From Bacteroidota bacterium (lineage in GTDB: Bacteria > Bacteroidota > Bacteroidia > Bacteroidales > F082), in the NCBI GenBank assembly GCA_002686705.1, contig NYYH01000052.1:1-13015 (forward strand): a stretch of DNA of 13,015 nucleotides, given 5' to 3'. Below the pieces are notes generated by a model, which saw only the letters and a list, made by a program, of their open reading frames with translations, searched no databases and had not been told where the DNA came from. Positions 2,998 through 11,973 of the stretch are shown one piece after another. The translations under genes were made by a program, and so were the position numbers. Every line of letters begins with the position of its first letter. The first letter of the stretch is position 1.

Positions 2998-3980
2998 ATG
3001 AATAAATTAATATTAATCATTACTCTAATTACAACTTTAGCCATCGCTGCTTAAGGCTAATAAAAGGACAAGCGATAATAATTTCTGTGAAGAAAGAGTC
3101 TGCTGCTTATAATATTGGTATTAAACCAGGATTTAATCTTGTTGAAGTGAATGGGAAAACTATCAATTCATTTATTGATGCTAAGAAGGCAGATCCAAAC
3201 CCTCCTTTTAACGATATTCACATAAACTTATTAAGTACTGAGAACATTATCCGAGAATTGTACGGAACACCTGGTGACACAGTAAATATAACTTATTTAG
3301 GTGAAAAAAATATAGAACACTTTGCATCACTTATACTTAACAACAGAAGTGCTGAGAAAGTGTCATTTATTCCATCATTGCCGCCAATGTATGCTTCGTT
3401 TGATAAAAAGATAATTAATGATAGAATTGCTTATATACATTTTGATGTTTTTCTTCCAGTTTTGCTCGATTCGATAGTAAGTAGTATTGCCGAGTATAAT
3501 GATTATCCTAATTTGATTATCGATATACGGGGAAATCCCGGTGGGGATTTTAATACCAGAAGAACCATAGCATAACAATTTGTAAGTGAGCGTACCCTAT
3601 TCTGGAGATACCAACGAAGAAACGATGTTAACGAAGTGTTTTTAGTCCCTCCATCTAAGCCATATAATGGAAAAGTAGTAATACTTATAGATGAGTTGAG
3701 CAGCTCGTCAAGTGAAGAATTCTCAGGTGCTATGAAAGCTATCGGGAGAGCTACTATTATTGGTCAAAGAACGGCTGGAAAAGTAGTAACTATGGAGATT
3801 GTAGAATTGCCTGATGGTGGACTTTTTGTTTATCCAAATCAGCAAACTCGAACATGCAAAGATGAAATATTGGAAGCGGTAGGAGTTGTCCCTGATATTA
3901 GTATTGAATTAGATAGAGATTCATTATTAATAGGGATAGATAATCAGCTTGAAAAAGCAATTAATTACTTAAATAATTAA
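2998..3980 (+). pseudogene. Decayed S41-family (C-terminal processing-type) serine protease with PDZ domain
   Basis: Three pieces together resemble an exported S41 protease. An ATG at 2998 starts a signal-peptide-like segment (MNKLILIITLITTLAIAA) that ends at a TAA at 3052. Homology then resumes in another frame, with no start of its own except a GTG at 3087: a PDZ domain (SVKKESAAYNIGIKPGFNLVEVNGK) and the S41 core LIIDIRGNPGG. That frame is interrupted by TAA at 3573-3575 and continues unbroken to 3980 with the Ser cluster of the nucleophile motif (LSSSSSEEF, Ser codons 3699-3713), the presumed catalytic Lys (TAGK, 3780-3782) and the typical end GVVPDISIELDRD. The part usually present between signal peptide and PDZ is missing. 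So there are two lesions: an N-terminal deletion/frameshift and a nonsense codon upstream of the catalytic residues. Loss of activity is inferred. A sequencing error could explain one lesion but hardly both. Confidence 0.85.
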
Positions 3981-4421: not shown

Positions 4422-5477
4422 TCAAATTTTTCGGGATGCCCCTAAGATTTTAAAAAACCACATGGGTAAAGGCTTTTTTTGTTTTCTTTTAGTAATATTT
4501 AGATACCATCCAATTTTCTTTATGATGGGAATTTTGTGTGTCTCAACAAATTCAATTAATGTCCCATCAGGATCTTCAATATAAGAGAAGTGTCCGGCAG
4601 CTTCGCCCATGTCAAAACCAACTGCACTGTCAACTGTAAAATTATATCCAGCAGCTTCACACTCCGTTTTCAGATCATGCATTCCAATTATATCAAAGCA
4701 TAGATGGATATACCCTAAATCTCCCCAAAGTCGATCTTCATATATTTTTCTAACCTTATGATCTACAGCCTGAATAAGTTCAATCGTGCTATCACCCAAC
4801 ATAGGGCTAAATGGTCCTATTCTCTTGTTTTCATGCTTTAGCAGTACTCGTCTGTATTTCTCATTTCCACCTGGCAAACTTGTCAAATCATTAAAAATCT
4901 TCTCCTGGTCATAAACAACAGTTTCATAACCTAAAATTTGAGAGTATAACTTTATGGATCTATCCATATCGCTAACTCCAATTATTACGCCTGAATTTCC
5001 ACCGGTTACTTTTGGTTGTTTTAGAAGCCAATCTGTACCTTGTTCGATCTCAAAAATGTTATTGTATGGATCTTTTATAAAAAAATGTGGTTTACCTTCC
5101 GGAGAGTTATTTATTTCAGAAATTATGTTGACTTTACTTTTTTGAAACTGTTTAAATGCCCTATGTATATCAGGGGCTTTTATCTTGCCGATAAAAATAC
5201 CCAAATCACCTAGTTGAATCTCAAAAGAAGGTGCTTCCGGAGTTCGACTTGTATTTTGCCAAACTTCAAATCCACCTCCCCCCTTCATATTATAAGTAAG
5301 TACAGCATGGCGTGTTTGAATTTGATTATCAGTATATCGTGACATCAAATTAGCCTCTGCTGCTTCATCAAAAATGATAACGTCGTAACCAAGTATTTTT
5401 TGATACCAATCACGTGCTTCTTTTAAATTCGAAACCCCAATTCCTAATTGCTGTATCCCAGCTACAATATATGCCAT
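4422..5477 (-). CDS. Two-domain VOC (glyoxalase/bleomycin-resistance/dioxygenase fold) protein
   Basis: The 351-residue protein contains two tandem vicinal-oxygen-chelate domains and no signal peptide, so it is probably cytoplasmic. Domain 1 (about 6-146) opens with LGIGVSNLKEARDWYQKILGYDV and closes with HFFIKDPYNNIFEIEQ. Domain 2 (about 160-313) opens with GVIIGVSDMDRSIKLYSQILGYE and closes with FSYIEDPDGTLIEFVE. Possible metal ligands in domain 2 are His258 (YIHLCFD) and Glu309 (LIEFVE). The His often found on the first strand is absent in both domains (IQQLGIG, NSGVIIG), so the metal site may be incomplete or atypical. A basic, aromatic C-terminal tail (about 318-351) is not part of the fold. 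The ATG follows directly on the TAA of the upstream dehydrogenase gene, implying translational coupling and a shared pathway. Isomerase, lyase or ring-cleaving dioxygenase activity are all possible; the substrate cannot be read. Confidence 0.82.
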   Translation of the reverse strand: MAYIVAGIQQLGIGVSNLKEARDWYQKILGYDVIIFDEAAEANLMSRYTDNQIQTRHAVLTYNMKGGGGFEVWQNTSRTPEAPSFEIQLGDLGIFIGKIKAPDIHRAFKQFQKSKVNIISEINNSPEGKPHFFIKDPYNNIFEIEQGTDWLLKQPKVTGGNSGVIIGVSDMDRSIKLYSQILGYETVVYDQEKIFNDLTSLPGGNEKYRRVLLKHENKRIGPFSPMLGDSTIELIQAVDHKVRKIYEDRLWGDLGYIHLCFDIIGMHDLKTECEAAGYNFTVDSAVGFDMGEAAGHFSYIEDPDGTLIEFVETHKIPIIKKIGWYLNITKRKQKKPLPMWFFKILGASRKI

Positions 5478-6272
5478 TTATTTCGGCTGAATTTTGTTCA
5501 CAAAGCTATAAAAAAGAACAGGTAAAAATTTTCTAACCCAAACTAAGTAGATTTCCTTGCCACCAATAAACACTTCTTTCTTATTTTTTTTAATGGCCTT
5601 AATAATTTGTTTAGAACAAGATTCAGCACTAATACCTTGTGCCTGACCATCATCCAATTGATTATGCCGACTCCCATCCTTCAAAATTGCATTGTATGAA
5701 ATATTAGTTTTAACACGACCAGGTATAACGATTGTAACCTTTATTCGATTACTTGCTTGTTCAGCTCTAAGAGTTTCATAGTAACCATGCAGTGCATGTT
5801 TAGAAGCCGAATAAGCAGATCGAAGAGGAAATCCAAACTTACCAACGACGGAGCTCACTACAACAATGTGTCCAGATTTTTGTTCCATCATATAAGGCAA
5901 GACAGCCTTAGTAATAGCAATATTTCCAAAATAATTAATTTCCATTATACGACGGTCTATTTTAAGTGGTGTCTCAAATGCAAATGATCTTTGACTGATA
6001 CCTCCGTTTAAAATTAAATAATCAATTGAGCCATATCTTTGTATAACTTCTTTAACATTAGAGCTATAGTCATTATTCTTCTCTAAATCCAATGGGATGA
6101 GGAAGCAGTTTTCAGTATAATGCACACAACGATTCTTAACCTTTTCTAACTCTTCAACATTACGAGATGAAAGCACAACATTTGCCTGAAGTTTGGCCAT
6201 AGTTATTGAAAGTGCCTTTCCAATACCTGATGAGGCTCCAATTATCCAAACTGTTTTGTCATTAAACGTCAT
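5478..6272 (-). CDS. Short-chain dehydrogenase/reductase (SDR), classical type
   Basis: This is an NAD(P)-dependent oxidoreductase of 264 residues, a normal length for a classical SDR. The cofactor motif GASSGIG is at 12-18. SSRN (35-38), with Arg37 after the second strand, suggests NADP(H). The NNAG motif appears as NGG (89-91). The catalytic set is Ser141 (VVVSSVVG), Tyr154 and Lys158 (SAYSASKHA), with PGRVKT after the sixth strand. The sequence resembles the DHRS7-like branch, with NGGISQRS and a C-terminal hydrophobic stretch (about 240-258, KEIYLVWVRKFLPVLFYSF) that may contact the membrane. It is upstream of the VOC gene with no intervening base (TAA then ATG), so the two are almost certainly one transcript. 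The physiological substrate is unknown. A 147-base gap separates it from the GH26 gene upstream, so it may have its own promoter, though no clear -7 box is visible there. Confidence 0.9.
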   Translation of the reverse strand: MTFNDKTVWIIGASSGIGKALSITMAKLQANVVLSSRNVEELEKVKNRCVHYTENCFLIPLDLEKNNDYSSNVKEVIQRYGSIDYLILNGGISQRSFAFETPLKIDRRIMEINYFGNIAITKAVLPYMMEQKSGHIVVVSSVVGKFGFPLRSAYSASKHALHGYYETLRAEQASNRIKVTIVIPGRVKTNISYNAILKDGSRHNQLDDGQAQGISAESCSKQIIKAIKKNKKEVFIGGKEIYLVWVRKFLPVLFYSFVNKIQPK

Positions 6273-6419: not shown

Positions 6420-7565
6420 TTACCAGGTATCTTTAATAGTTTGACGGATTACTTCACAAGTTGAAGTGTCGTTAATTATGCTCCAGTTAAGAGACTTGTT
6501 TAATGTTGTTTTATCGTCATCATCATTAAATAGTATAATAGCCTTTAATCTTGGATACTTTGCTGGTAAATCTGTAAGAGCATTTCTGAACCATTCTTCT
6601 CTATTACCTCCAACTCGTAGGCATCCCATTTCAGTAATCATCATAGGTTTGTCGAGCATATCTAGCCAATCATAATAGTTGCCATATATATCTTTAAATG
6701 TCCACCATTTAGACCAAGAGGCAACAGTACCATAATTTAAGGTTCCAACTCCTATCCAATCAACATATTCATCACCAGGGTAATATTCGGCATAACGCAA
6801 ATAGGCAGGCTGAGGTGCCCAAATCCAGATTACGTTATCCACTCCTAACTCCCGGAATTTATTAACGACATGTTGCCAAGCGGCAACAAAATCCTTTGGT
6901 TCATTATTCTGAGGGCCCCATGGATATCTGTAAGGATCATTCATTTCATGTCCGAATCTAATGAAAATATTATGTTCAAAAGCAGCTATTTCATGAGCCC
7001 ACTCCTCAATATAGAAATCATAATCACCACGAGCCACAGTAGACATCCCTGCTACATTTGGATCAGCAACAGCATGTAAATTATGTTTTTCTCTATCAAA
7101 GTCATTTAGCCATGGTTCCCAGGTTATTATAGGCATTGAGCCCAAATCGTAAATTGTTTTTGCATAAATTGCTGGAAACTTTTCTCTATCCTTATCACCC
7201 CAGGCAGTATAAATTTGAATTAGTGGTAAAGTGGACTTTAGTGATTCATCAAGATTTATTATTTTATCGAAAGACTGCAGATAATTATTTTCATAAACCC
7301 CAAGAAAAATTGTATCCGGATTTTTCATCAACTCAATATTATGCCTATATGGTTGAAACCAAGCCAGTTCTTTCGATCTTATTGGTTCTCGCTGACTAAG
7401 GAGGTAATCTTGTTCAACTTCAATTATTTTATTTCCTAAAGCATCTAATGCTCCAGAAATAGGGCCACTTGTTTGTTTTCCAAGAAAGACAAATACAAGT
7501 ACTAATGCAATACCCATTACTGTTGCTGCACTAACAAAAACAAAACGCTTCATCGAATTCTTCAT
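6420..7565 (-). CDS. Membrane-anchored glycoside hydrolase family 26 protein (beta-mannanase/lichenase-like)
   Basis: This is a retaining endo-glycosidase-like protein, probably acting in the periplasm while tethered to the inner membrane. After a few basic residues comes one membrane segment (about 8-28) with no signal-peptidase or lipobox Cys site, then a (beta/alpha)8-type domain (about 60-375). The acid/base is probably Glu207 in RFGHEMND (codon 6945-6947), and the nucleophile is Glu312 in MITEMG (codon 6630-6632); their spacing of 105 residues fits GH26. Other GH26-like signals are PIITWEPW (145-152) and WIWAPQP (247-253). Known members cleave beta-1,4-mannan, and some cleave mixed-linkage glucan or xylan. 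It is the last gene of the polysaccharide operon, 11 bases after the synthase. I infer that it trims or edits the polymer, as BcsZ does for cellulose. An alternative start is Met5. Both catalytic acids are present, so activity is expected. Confidence 0.85.
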   Translation of the reverse strand: MKNSMKRFVFVSAATVMGIALVLVFVFLGKQTSGPISGALDALGNKIIEVEQDYLLSQREPIRSKELAWFQPYRHNIELMKNPDTIFLGVYENNYLQSFDKIINLDESLKSTLPLIQIYTAWGDKDREKFPAIYAKTIYDLGSMPIITWEPWLNDFDREKHNLHAVADPNVAGMSTVARGDYDFYIEEWAHEIAAFEHNIFIRFGHEMNDPYRYPWGPQNNEPKDFVAAWQHVVNKFRELGVDNVIWIWAPQPAYLRYAEYYPGDEYVDWIGVGTLNYGTVASWSKWWTFKDIYGNYYDWLDMLDKPMMITEMGCLRVGGNREEWFRNALTDLPAKYPRLKAIILFNDDDDKTTLNKSLNWSIINDTSTCEVIRQTIKDTW

Positions 7566-7576
7566 CTCTATATATT

Positions 7577-9184
7577 TTAACTCTTTCTTCTTATCTTTAT
7601 TTTTTTAAGATCAATCTTTTTCCAAGGTTCTTCCGGTTCCAAATCACGTGATTCATAAGCAGCATAAATCCCTCCAATAATCATAATTATTGACACAAAT
7701 GCAAAAGCGAACATTCCCCAAACTTTTTGGCTTGTAAGTATCAATATTCCTTCAGAAGCCACATATAACCTATCATAAATTACATACCCCAAAGTTAATA
7801 TGAACAATATAACCTGAAAAATTAACGGGCGCGTATATGGACTCAACCCTTTTACTGCTTTTTTTGCAGTAGGTATATATGGTATTTCTACGTTTACAAC
7901 AGCAAGCAATGCACCAAGAAAAAACACAGGCCAGGTTGCAAATTTCAACACCATCCCACGCCAGTGAAGTCCTCTCTCAGATATAGGATGACTTAGCCAG
8001 CGTTGTACATATAAATATACTAATAATGCGATAACAATAATTGGTGTGCCGTTGACTAAAAACTCCCCAAAATCCATTTTTGCCGGCAACCATCCTCCCC
8101 AAAAATACATAAATGGTATAGCCACGTACAAAAAAATCGTTACTCCTACCAAATAATATGTAGAGATAGCAAAATAAGAAATTAGTTGCCACAAGCTTAG
8201 TGTTTTTGATAATCGCGGCAATTCACTAAAAAGTATCTCAAATACTCCGCGAGACCATTTTAATTGTTGCTTACAAAACGAACCAAAATCTTCAGGTACA
8301 AGACCGCGACTAACAACTACGGGGTTAAAAACGGATTTCCATCCAGCAGCATGAAGCCTAATAGATGTTATTAAATCTTCTGCCAAACCAATTCCATGCC
8401 CACCAATAGAATCCAATGCTTTTTTCCGGAAGGTACAGTTTGCACCTATAGCCACGCTTGTCCCATAACCGTACATGCCCATCATTGTTGGACCATAAAA
8501 AGTATAGGTTTGTTCTGCGGCTCCACGTGCGGTAAACGAACGATACTGATTGTAATATGTTTGTGCAACTTGCACGAAACCAACCCTTTCGTCTTTAAAA
8601 TAGCCTAGCACTTCATCAAGAAAGTTAGGGAAAGGAATATGATCGGGATCCATAATTAACACAAAATCCTCATCGATCATTTGAAGAGCTTTATTTACTT
8701 TTCCTGCTTTCGCACCTGGTAAACCAACTAGTTCTAACCAAACTGCTCCATGTTTTTCAGCCACTTCCTTAAAAGCGGGGTCCTGGGTATCATCTAATAA
8801 ATAGGTTGTGTGAGGATAAATGATATTTGCACAAGCTTCAAGAGTTTTATCAAACATACTTAGTGGTTCTCCCGGTGAACTAGTAGTAAAAATTGCAACT
8901 TTCAGCCCGTCCTCAGCATGTGCTCTTTTTGGTTTCTTTATCCCAAGATAATTTATCCAAATTAAAATTAATCGTAGTAGACCGTACCATGTAATTAATG
9001 AAAGAATAACAAATAATGGTAGTGAAGCCACATGATTAGGGTGAAACCACCAGTCAAAAAATCGAACTATACTTATCACACCAGCAATAACAAGAATAAG
9101 GAAAAAGAAACGTCCGGTTTTGGTAACTTCTTGTGCCTCCCAAAACTTCCATAACTCATCCGACCTATCTTGTTTTGTTCTCAT
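7577..9184 (-). CDS. Processive family 2 glycosyltransferase, cellulose-synthase-like, multi-pass membrane protein
   Basis: This is the likely polymerase and inner-membrane channel of the operon, using a nucleotide sugar (GDP-mannose or UDP-glucose cannot be told apart here). Two N-terminal membrane segments (about 25-45 and 53-80) precede a cytosolic GT2 domain (about 93-320) with the processive D,D,D,QxxRW set: Asp131/Asp132 (LLDDTQD), DPDH (179-182), AED (268-270) and QQLKWSRG (306-313). The distance from Asp270 to Gln306 equals that in BcsA. Roughly five further segments follow (about 335-362, 379-396, 411-431, 453-472, 488-510). YIPTAK (436-441) sits where BcsA has its FxVTxK gating loop. 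The protein ends after a 25-residue basic tail, so the PilZ c-di-GMP domain of BcsA is absent. Its ATG overlaps the stop of the upstream gene by one base (TAATG). Hyaluronan- or YaiP-like synthases are alternatives. Confidence 0.92.
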   Translation of the reverse strand: MRTKQDRSDELWKFWEAQEVTKTGRFFFLILVIAGVISIVRFFDWWFHPNHVASLPLFVILSLITWYGLLRLILIWINYLGIKKPKRAHAEDGLKVAIFTTSSPGEPLSMFDKTLEACANIIYPHTTYLLDDTQDPAFKEVAEKHGAVWLELVGLPGAKAGKVNKALQMIDEDFVLIMDPDHIPFPNFLDEVLGYFKDERVGFVQVAQTYYNQYRSFTARGAAEQTYTFYGPTMMGMYGYGTSVAIGANCTFRKKALDSIGGHGIGLAEDLITSIRLHAAGWKSVFNPVVVSRGLVPEDFGSFCKQQLKWSRGVFEILFSELPRLSKTLSLWQLISYFAISTYYLVGVTIFLYVAIPFMYFWGGWLPAKMDFGEFLVNGTPIIVIALLVYLYVQRWLSHPISERGLHWRGMVLKFATWPVFFLGALLAVVNVEIPYIPTAKKAVKGLSPYTRPLIFQVILFILTLGYVIYDRLYVASEGILILTSQKVWGMFAFAFVSIIMIIGGIYAAYESRDLEPEEPWKKIDLKKIKIRRKS

Positions 9185-10740
9185 TATTTTAGGTATAATT
9201 TAATCCCTACATTAAAATTATTGGTTAAGAAATAATATGTTGATACATATGAGTACGAAATAGTTAGATCTACTTTTTTAGATAACTGGGATTGCAAAGA
9301 AACTCCTAAATCAAGTGGGACATATCTTTGATTACTATAACCGGTTACGATAACTGTTTCATCAAAATCATTTTTATCAAGGTATAAATACGGGGCTTTA
9401 ATTTTAGAAAACAATCCTATTGATGTATGTCCATATATTTCCGTTGATGAGCCAATCTGGTACTTAATATTTACTAATAAAGAATTCGACATCTGATTCA
9501 TTGGAGTATAATAAGGATTATATATCCCTTCAATTTTATCCGTGTAATTGCTTATTATCTGTGATAGGCTATCAACTGCTTCAAATCGGTCCTCCTTTGA
9601 ATTCATATAATTAAAACTATAACCAAAATAAAATTTGAAATTCGAAACAACAACCGGACGACTTAGAAACCATAGATAGTAAGAGTTAACATAATTATTA
9701 TCTGGAAATATATTCGATTGAGCTCCAATTAATCCGTTCCAATTATCCTTCTTACCAATGGAAATATTTAATGCGAGTCGTGAAACTAACAAGATGCTAT
9801 CTCTCTCAACACTGCTCACTGTATAATCATAATTTTTTCGTTCTACCATCAAATCAATTTGAACGGGTCTATTAAATTTTTTTACTAAATGAATACCGCC
9901 AATCCAATCAACGTCAGATCCTATTTTAGAGTAAATTCCACCAACAGACATTTTCAAATTGATGCCAGCACTGGCAATATTAAAACTATTAGAAAGTTGC
10001 ACTGATGCTATTAAATTTGAAGTCGGAATATCCGAATACCTCAACATGTTTCCCGAAATACCAAGATCAAGAATATCCGACCGATACCAGTTAAACTTTA
10101 TGCTGGGACCATAGGCATGCATTGGCTGATCATCAATACGATACCTACCTCCTATAGATAATTGAGGAGCTATAATACGATAAATTTGTTGATACAGTTC
10201 TTTGATCATATTATCATCAGGATTTAGTGTAATCGCATTTTCAAGATGTATAGTAGCTTCTTTAAATTGCCTTTGATAATAGTAAATTTTACCTAATAAT
10301 AGTTGAGCTTCTCCATTGTATTTATTGACAGAAACATATTCGATTAATAGTTTTTTGGCATATTCATATTTTTTATAATCGAACAACATTATTGCATATT
10401 CATATTTAACATCCATATTGTTAGGATGAAAGCCAATAGCTCGTTCATAAATTGTTGATGCCAGATCAAAGTCATGCAACCAAAACAATGTTTGTGCATA
10501 CAATCGTTCTACATAAATGTTACCAGGGTATTGATCTTCAAAAGATCCTAGAACATCTGCTGCTTCAGAAAATTTCTTAGCATCAATTAATTGCCTAGAT
10601 TTATCTAAAGTATTATCTACCAGCTCATTTTGAGCGATAATAGTAACACTAAATGAAAAAATGATAAATGCCAAAATAGGCAATTTGAACCATTGTGCTT
10701 TTAAATTCAGCAAAAGATTTCCCATATTAATATATCCCAT
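9184..10740 (-). CDS. Exported TPR plus outer-membrane beta-barrel protein (BcsC/YaiO-like exporter)
   Basis: The 518-residue protein starts with a signal peptide (core about 20-33, likely cleavage after SVTIIA at 36). About four TPR-like helical repeats follow (about 43-188; clearest are FDLASTIYERAIGFHPNN and FKEATIHLENAITLNPDD). The rest (about 195-518) is a region of alternating polar/aromatic strands that reads as an outer-membrane barrel, ending in NVGIKLYLK. GIYNPYYTP (405-413) followed by strands recalls the end of BcsC (GxYFSPQ-type segment), and the size would allow about 16 strands. A periplasmic TPR scaffold fused to a porin is the layout of BcsC and PgaA, but with far fewer repeats than BcsC. 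The family could equally be YaiO-type. As the first gene of the operon, coupled to a GT2 synthase, it probably exports the polymer. Met6 (codon 10723-10725) is a plausible alternative start with a more compact signal peptide. Confidence 0.8.
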   Translation of the reverse strand: MGYINMGNLLLNLKAQWFKLPILAFIIFSFSVTIIAQNELVDNTLDKSRQLIDAKKFSEAADVLGSFEDQYPGNIYVERLYAQTLFWLHDFDLASTIYERAIGFHPNNMDVKYEYAIMLFDYKKYEYAKKLLIEYVSVNKYNGEAQLLLGKIYYYQRQFKEATIHLENAITLNPDDNMIKELYQQIYRIIAPQLSIGGRYRIDDQPMHAYGPSIKFNWYRSDILDLGISGNMLRYSDIPTSNLIASVQLSNSFNIASAGINLKMSVGGIYSKIGSDVDWIGGIHLVKKFNRPVQIDLMVERKNYDYTVSSVERDSILLVSRLALNISIGKKDNWNGLIGAQSNIFPDNNYVNSYYLWFLSRPVVVSNFKFYFGYSFNYMNSKEDRFEAVDSLSQIISNYTDKIEGIYNPYYTPMNQMSNSLLVNIKYQIGSSTEIYGHTSIGLFSKIKAPYLYLDKNDFDETVIVTGYSNQRYVPLDLGVSLQSQLSKKVDLTISYSYVSTYYFLTNNFNVGIKLYLK

Positions 10741-10772: not shown

Positions 10773-10803
10773 CAAATATACAACCTGTAGTGAAATTAGT
10801 AAA
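10773..10803 (-). promoter_or_regulatory. Candidate promoter of the polysaccharide operon
   Basis: On the - strand, TATATTTG (10780 down to 10773) matches the Bacteroidota -7 consensus TAnnTTTG exactly. Exactly 19 bases further upstream lies TTTA (10803-10800), three of four matches to the -33 TTTG. The leader to the ATG at 10740 would be roughly 25 bases. The -33 half falls inside the direct repeat, so the repeat may supply the upstream promoter region. The match is directly visible; activity is inferred. Confidence 0.5.
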
Positions 10804-11040: not shown

Positions 11041-11973
11041 ATGAGATTATCACTGGTAATATTATTCTTGATCCTATCTATTCTTGTAAGGACTCAGAAT
11101 GAAATTACCCACAATATTGTTGAAATTACGGTTGATAATGATCTTGTATTTCTTAATGACAGGTATTATTCTAATGGAGTTACTTTAAAGATTTATTCAC
11201 CAACTATTAAAAAATCACCAATTAATAGAATCCTGTTGCCTAGCGATATTGACGAAATAATTTATTACGCACTGAGTATAACCCATCACCTTTATACACC
11301 TGATGAAGTATCAACATCAGAAATTCAATTGACGGATCATCCGTATGCAACTTATCTATTGTTGGGTAATAGTAAAATGTCGTTTAATTACAAGAAGCGG
11401 ATAAAGAAAACTTCAGGTATGGCGGTGGGTTTGATTGGATCAGCTGCTGGCGGTGAATATATACAGAATAGATTACATAGTACCATGGCAGCAGCATATC
11501 CATCCGAAGGTTGGCAAAACCAAGTGAAAAATGATCTTTGCTTACAATATAGTGCTGTTATTGAAAAAGGATTCGTCGATTTTAATTGGTTTGAGCTAAA
11601 TGGGATGGTTGGAGCTACTCTAGGCGTACCACATACTGAAGCTAATATTGGAAGTTCTTTCAGAATTGGATATTTTAACGACTATTTCCATGGATTGGCT
11701 GTTGATGCATCATCTCGTTGGCAAGCATGGATATACTGTAGCGGTTCGATATTTTTGATAAATTATAATGCATCGTTGCAAGGAGGTACATTAATTCAAG
11801 ACAATGTTCATACTATAAGCAACATAAATAGTTCGTTGTTACATGCTTCTTTGGGAGGAGAATTGCAATATAAAAGACTAAGTATCGAATATGGTATGGT
11901 AGTCCGCTCACCTGAATTTCCAACCGCGTATTGGCATCGGTGGGGACATCTTAATGTTTCATTTGCATTTTAG
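11041..11973 (+). CDS. LpxR-family outer-membrane protein (lipid A 3'-O-deacylase-like, DUF2219)
   Basis: The 310-residue protein has a short hydrophobic signal peptide (about 1-18) and then outer-membrane barrel strands to the end (HLNVSFAF, aromatic last residue). Family motifs are clear: VDNDLVFLNDRYYSNG (31-46), with Asn33/Asp34 matching the Asn-Asp pair of the Salmonella LpxR site; HHLYTPDE (82-89); DHPYATYLLLG (99-109, DRPYAGWLYLG in relatives); and AAGGEYIQNRLHSTM followed by GWQNQ, where His146 corresponds to the catalytic His. Salmonella LpxR removes the 3'-acyloxyacyl chain of lipid A. Here the role is probably removal of acyl chains from lipid A or a related lipid, but many Bacteroidota members are untested. 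It is divergent from the polysaccharide operon and 153 bases upstream of the pseudouridine synthase gene, with no sign of a shared function beyond the cell envelope. Confidence 0.85.
   Translation: MRLSLVILFLILSILVRTQNEITHNIVEITVDNDLVFLNDRYYSNGVTLKIYSPTIKKSPINRILLPSDIDEIIYYALSITHHLYTPDEVSTSEIQLTDHPYATYLLLGNSKMSFNYKKRIKKTSGMAVGLIGSAAGGEYIQNRLHSTMAAAYPSEGWQNQVKNDLCLQYSAVIEKGFVDFNWFELNGMVGATLGVPHTEANIGSSFRIGYFNDYFHGLAVDASSRWQAWIYCSGSIFLINYNASLQGGTLIQDNVHTISNINSSLLHASLGGELQYKRLSIEYGMVVRSPEFPTAYWHRWGHLNVSFAF

Follow-up and report, generated by a model that had tools for sequence, protein, structure and literature searches.

A conserved cassette of TPR-barrel, GT2 and GH26 genes in Bacteroidota as a probable synthase-dependent exopolysaccharide system

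Introduction

The Bcs cellulose system comprises the synthase BcsA, the TPR-barrel exporter BcsC and a hydrolase gene, and the locus described here has counterparts of all three: a BcsA-like synthase, a BcsC-like TPR-barrel and a hydrolase. It departs from Bcs in that BcsB is absent from 39 genomes with the same arrangement (class A, below), the synthase has no PilZ match, QQLKW replaces QxxRW, and GH26 replaces GH8. The mixed-linkage glucan synthases BgsA (S. meliloti) and RiGT2 (Romboutsia ilealis) are processive GT2 enzymes, as our synthase may be. BgsA also resembles it in having no PilZ and two or three N-terminal helices (available text of PMC6821405), whereas BgsA and RiGT2 both carry QxxRW (available text of PMC10374906). 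The R. ilealis RiGT2 paper mentions neither GH26 nor TPR.

The pairing of GT2 with GH26 already has a precedent, in S. meliloti. On pSymB, UDP-glucuronate decarboxylase and galE-type genes are followed by GT2, DUF995, GH26 and DUF995, a cluster that we take to be the aps operon (uxs1-uxe-apsS-apsH1-apsE-apsH2) for an arabinose-containing polysaccharide. Like our locus, it places GH26 in the same operon as a GT2 synthase; unlike our locus, it has UDP-sugar and DUF995 genes, none of which accompany our cassette, and no TPR-barrel gene in the pSymB stretch read. The wps-1 exopolysaccharide cluster of Actinoplanes missouriensis also combines a GH26 gene (wpsE) with GT2, but belongs to a Gram-positive organism, follows a Wzx/Wzy-type pathway and includes sulfotransferases (excerpted text of PMC13390465). 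Searches of open-licence papers listed no TPR-GT2-GH26 system and no CDP-using processive GT2.

Here we analyze three genes in a 13,015-nucleotide stretch of Bacteroidales DNA (contig NYYH01000052.1; hereafter the window, meaning the whole stretch analysed) and their relatives in other genomes.

Results

Layout of the cassette

A first-pass annotation had described three tightly packed genes for a TPR scaffold with an outer-membrane barrel, a cellulose-synthase-like GT2 and a membrane-tethered hydrolase, and our coordinates and protein analyses agree with it (Table 1). All three genes lie on the minus strand; the TPR-barrel and GT2 genes meet in TAATG, a 1-base overlap, and 11 bases separate GT2 from GH26. 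The possible promoter element upstream follows TAnnTTTG, which we take to be the Bacteroidota -7 box consensus. GH26 is most likely the last gene of the cassette, because the SDR gene that comes next lies 147 bases away and has relatives at just 3 of the 81 loci examined (the best 80 of 106 plus the window). The neighbouring glyoxalase, with relatives at 1 of these 81, was likewise rejected as a cassette part (both genes, 4422-6272).

Table 1. Features of the window (positions) and of related loci (locus names)
Feature	Position or loci	Strand	Evidence or remark
TPR-barrel exporter, BcsC-like, 518 aa	9184..10740	-	Pfam TPR, model pLDDT 94.2, PDB matches
GT2 polysaccharide synthase, BcsA-like, no PilZ, 535 aa	7577..9184	-	Pfam, PDB sequence and fold match, motifs
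Membrane-anchored GH26 glycoside hydrolase, 381 aa	6420..7565	-	Pfam PF02156, invariant columns, CtLic26A match, anchor
Possible promoter -7 element TATATTTG	10773..10780	-	TAnnTTTG pattern upstream of TPR-barrel start
Triad loci with broken GT2 Asp pair	L051, L068, L071, L074, L075, L077, L079, L080, L170, L172, L173, L174, L178		GT2 of L178 is L175, same genome
Class-B loci, GH26-like domain fused to or following GT2	L087-L098, L115-L123, L125, L176, L177, L179		GH158-related gene beside
Class-C Chlorobia-like loci, minimal cellulose-like cassette	L126-L135, L139		TPR-barrel, GT2 and GH8

Elsewhere in the window, an S41 peptidase match (3087-3980) falls in two separate frames, one at 3087-3575 and the other at 3636-3980, and this gene therefore looks interrupted or misassembled. 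An LpxR-family outer-membrane protein (11041-11973; Pfam, 167 bits) is encoded divergently from the cassette.

Exporter, synthase and hydrolase

The exporter carries TPR repeats according to Pfam. In its AlphaFold model (mean pLDDT 94.2, 64 sequences), DSSP assigns 17 long strands after the TPR helices; three BcsC entries head the PDB matches of this model, and PelBC comes next. By its match to BcsC entry 9b8a (E 1.7e-18, TM-score 0.59), the protein is BcsC-like.

The synthase scores above the cut-offs of the Pfam GT2 models, with no PilZ among its Pfam matches. Its best PDB match is BcsA, both by sequence and by fold (AlphaFold model, pLDDT 87.6; E 1.4e-26). Against the BcsA model TIGR03030 it scores 142.5 bits, below the cut-off of 699.1. 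In the model, two long helices precede the catalytic domain and membrane helices follow it. Hydropathy places a fifth segment past the GT2 domain (412-430) where the model has a broken helix, and we therefore treat this topology as putative. Its motifs are DDT, DPDH, AED, QQLKW and PYIPTAK; compared with the processive-GT2 set (D, DxD, TED, QxxRW, FxVTxK), the first three are present and the last two depart. All 84 class-A rows, with duplicates included, have QQLKW, whereas QxxRW and FxVTxK are reported to be invariant across the BcsA, CrdS and BgsA clades (available text of PMC6821405). In BcsA the Arg of QxxRW forms a salt bridge with the diphosphate, R382A is inactive, and two gating-loop residues, Thr and Lys, are both critical (PMC10592267, in its accessible part). 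Both gating-loop residues are retained in PYIPTAK, and the Lys of QQLKW might keep the diphosphate contact. BcsB (PF03170) was found in none of the 39 class-A genomes, a set outside which the window's own genome lies; the E. coli and B. subtilis controls were positive.

The hydrolase matches GH26 (PF02156, 36.2 bits, cut-off 20.2), which occupies the place of the Bcs GH8 enzyme. Its N-terminus has a single hydrophobic segment, at residues 8-26; the protein has no lipobox. H206, E207 and E312, the catalytic HE pair and second Glu of the family, are invariant in 71 sequences. The best PDB match is the lichenase CtLic26A, its nearest characterised relative: the GH26 profile gives CtLic26A 166 bits, mannanases at most 47 and 1,3-xylanase-type entries 34. 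A loop that reads DGYNWG in CtLic26A is GTLNYG in the window protein, so its specificity may be neither that of a lichenase nor that of a mannanase.

Conservation of the cassette

We scanned species genomes with the window GT2 protein, kept the best 80 of 106 loci, and searched these and the window (81 loci) with profiles grown from the three window proteins. GH26 is downstream and co-oriented at 79 of the 81; both misses (L013, L075) are cut by contig borders, and at L016 and L025 the GH26 gene is broken into two frames. The TPR-barrel gene is upstream and co-oriented at 78. Of its three exceptions, L017 ends at a contig border, while L020 and L032 retain GT2 and GH26 and carry another large ORF in place of the TPR-barrel. 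Among 761 non-overlapping ORFs at the best 80 of 106 loci, only the TPR-barrel, GT2 and GH26 families recur at most loci. The adjacency is not due to chance, which bears out the co-occurrence that the first-pass annotation had proposed to look for.

Because the scan was anchored on GT2, it measures adjacency and not frequency. When 394 genomes were drawn evenly from the phylum, two had class A, one of them the chosen centre; a phage collection gave distant matches only. Databases label the cassette proteins 'cellulose synthase (UDP-forming)', 'glycosyltransferase' or 'hypothetical protein'; some source names for the GH26 are beta-mannanase.

Related arrangements

In 13 genomes of the even draw we found a second arrangement (class B). 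GT2 is fused to a GH26-like domain in 11 of the 13 (the score is weak in G392 and G079), and a separate GH26-like gene follows GT2 in G268 and G221. All seven fused proteins inspected have an extra hydrophobic segment between GT2 and GH26, as expected if fusion had joined an anchored GH26 of the window type to GT2. In 15 of 16 genomes (the 13 drawn evenly, together with G005, G497 and G456), the class-B GT2 adjoins a GH158 relative (PDB 9oro match, E 1.4e-48); the class-B contig of G343 is only 3.3 kb. GH158 is an endo-beta-1,3-glucanase family.

Class C combines TPR-barrel, GT2 and GH8 genes, with QQxRW in 24 of 25 rows. GH8 fills the hydrolase slot at all 11 loci fetched (by similarity; Pfam-tested in three), and nif and other neighbours suggest a Chlorobia host. 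The slot beside the synthase thus holds either GH8 or GH26. The earlier view that GH26 is unusual there is qualified by the pSymB precedent of GH26 beside GT2.

Two outliers were also observed. At L136 (2925-5596) GT2 overlaps a 325-aa GH26 gene with no TPR-barrel nearby, and its Asp-pair region resembles that of the S. meliloti GT2. At L138 (586-8999) a QQLKW GT2 adjoins apparent ABC-transporter genes, named by eye, with no GH26 nearby.

A subtype with CDP-sugar genes

At 8 of the best 80 of 106 loci the cassette adjoins a triad encoding glucose-1-phosphate cytidylyltransferase (TIGR02623), CDP-glucose 4,6-dehydratase (TIGR02622) and an SDR, identified with models at L080 and L068 and by similarity at the remaining loci. 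The triad follows GT2 at six loci (GH26 is visible behind it at five; L075 is cut off), lies upstream at L074 and is divergent at L051. In a second draw, which took a triad carrier as its centre and covered 247 genomes of a single order, ten had class A. TIGR02622 was present in nine of these ten, versus 26 of the 237 others (Fisher p 8e-8). Five of the ten were already known; the five new ones (G576, G630, G668, G712, G781) all have TIGR02622. The triad is in place at L170, L172, L173 and L174, and L171, which has no triad, is the same contig as L015.

By reading the alignment, and not by single-column scan, we noticed an Asp pair after strand 2 of GT2 (131-132). It reads DD in all 73 class-A rows with no triad at the locus (70 distinct, given the identical pairs L124 = L050, L171 = L015 and L058 = L056) and DS, DN, TD or SD in all 12 rows with one. 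Adding L175 makes 13 of 13: this GT2, cut off at its end, reads DS, and a second contig of its genome carries the triad and then GH26. This triad is the only one predicted before inspection, with TIGR02622 already known on that contig. DD is also retained in seven other class-A genomes where TIGR02622 is unlinked, and classes B, C and the other outliers have DD or DE in all rows except one gapped. In poplar CesA8, an Asp of the invariant DDG lies close enough to a ring nitrogen of uracil for a hydrogen bond (PMC10592267, same portion). Cytosine is without that ring hydrogen, and loss of the Asp would therefore fit a CDP donor.

L076 and L078 are nested among the triad rows of the GT2 tree (SH-aLRT 99), yet have DD, Tyr278 in GH26 and no triad at the locus; no TIGR02622 match exceeded the cut-off in their genomes, whose completeness is unstated. 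At residue 278 of GH26, 9 of 11 triad rows have Phe, and all 72 other rows have Tyr. We had considered this change a perfect marker when it held in seven of seven rows, but L170 and L174 have Tyr.

On the GT2 tree the Asp-pair and triad traits each change only twice. The first GT2 tree has triad rows in two clades, the larger GT2 tree has them in one clade with a reversal, and the GH26 tree requires five changes; all three are quick trees without bootstraps. The first omits 31 named loci (duplicates, pieces and short loci superseded by longer ones). The final alignments and larger tree omit L085, L086, L013 and L064, GH26 rows below 430 bits and GT2 rows below 550, leaving 83 GH26 and 86 GT2 rows. 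In a single-column co-variation analysis, only GT2 column 103 separated triad rows from others at 98%, which proves little because the same test found such columns in 2 of 16 clades with no triad rows; the shuffled-split test ignored kinship. The strength of the case for a donor switch is the pairing, one prediction and the chemistry, not many events.

Discussion

We consider it likely that the cassette is a three-gene synthase-dependent exopolysaccharide system, a confidence that applies to the machine and not to its product. From the computed parts, folds, membrane segments and conserved adjacency we infer polymer synthesis, the export route, the donor and the role of GH26. GT2 would polymerise a UDP-sugar at the cytoplasmic side, and the chain would pass through a membrane channel within GT2 itself. 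The TPR domain would guide the chain across the periplasm to exit via the BcsC-like barrel. GH26, anchored in the inner membrane, may act in the periplasm on this polymer as BcsZ acts on cellulose, cutting it to release or shorten chains or to clear strays. The change of QxxRW to QQLKW, the altered FxVTxK and the loci L020 and L032 with no TPR-barrel count against this reading.

We tentatively propose that the product is a beta-glucan with 1,3 and 1,4 links. A 1,3-linked beta-glucan is suggested by the lichenase as nearest characterised hydrolase and by GH158 beside class B; our certainty is limited because the GH26 loop differs from that of CtLic26A and because of the pSymB precedent. The mixed-linkage glucan named by the first-pass annotation is thus the best fit, although it remains a guess.

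Plain cellulose, made by a divergent Bcs-like system that has dispensed with BcsB and PilZ and replaced GH8 by GH26, is a less probable product. The nearest PDB relatives of GT2 and the exporter are BcsA and BcsC, GH8 fills the slot in class C, and databases label the GT2 as a UDP-forming cellulose synthase. These points are set against a TIGR03030 score far below its cut-off, the absence of BcsB from all 39 genomes, the lichenase-like GH26 and GH158 beside sister class B. We regard a polymer of another UDP-sugar, for instance a pentose as presumed for the aps operon, as unlikely. Among plasmid matches, the highest bit score belongs to the pSymB GT2, whose neighbours are GH26 and the UDP-glucuronate decarboxylase and galE-type genes. 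However, no such genes recur at window-type cassettes, and the GT2 identity is only 29%. The class-A profiles score 141 bits on the pSymB GT2 and 85 bits on its GH26; the pSymB GH26 bears no resemblance to CtLic26A.

Most characterised GH26 enzymes are mannanases, and the name beta-mannanase occurs among source labels, so a beta-mannan, which the first-pass annotation had also suggested, or a glucomannan might be expected, with GH26 as its mannanase. We find this product improbable and do not favour it, on profile scores and residues. Mannanases score far below CtLic26A, and GH158 beside class B also speaks against mannan. At mannanase subsites -1/+1, R203, H206 and E207 fit by spacing, but Leu276 occupies the presumed position of the -1 Tyr in an indirect alignment through CtLic26A. 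No mannose-nucleotide gene recurs among the 761 ORFs near the best 80 of 106 loci. The idea that GH26 degrades dietary or environmental polysaccharides and lies here by accident, as GH26 enzymes in utilisation loci of Bacteroidota (PMC6556568, available text) could suggest, is refuted by the adjacency at 79 of 81 loci (best 80 of 106 plus the window) and the class-B fusions; the ten window proteins scanned with Pfam, which include one TonB-type barrel protein (423-2972), contain no SusD and thus no SusC/SusD pair of a utilisation locus.

The window cassette is of the UDP type, and a CDP donor therefore concerns its relatives only. In the triad subtype, we see an even chance, judging from sequence, that GT2 has come to use a CDP-6-deoxyhexose in place of a UDP-sugar, becoming a processive CDP-reading synthase of an unusual 6-deoxyhexose polymer. 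The points in favour are the triad beside GT2, the broken Asp pair, the GH26 change near the active site and the return of the Asp pair in a lineage with no triad. If this is true, the subtype would be a natural experiment on nucleotide reading by a processive synthase, one that evolution has apparently also run in reverse, and might open the way to 6-deoxyhexose polymers of a new class. The cassette itself would be a compact machine to make, trim and export a sugar polymer in several Bacteroidota lineages, and would allow a test of the minimal set for synthase-dependent export without BcsB or PilZ.
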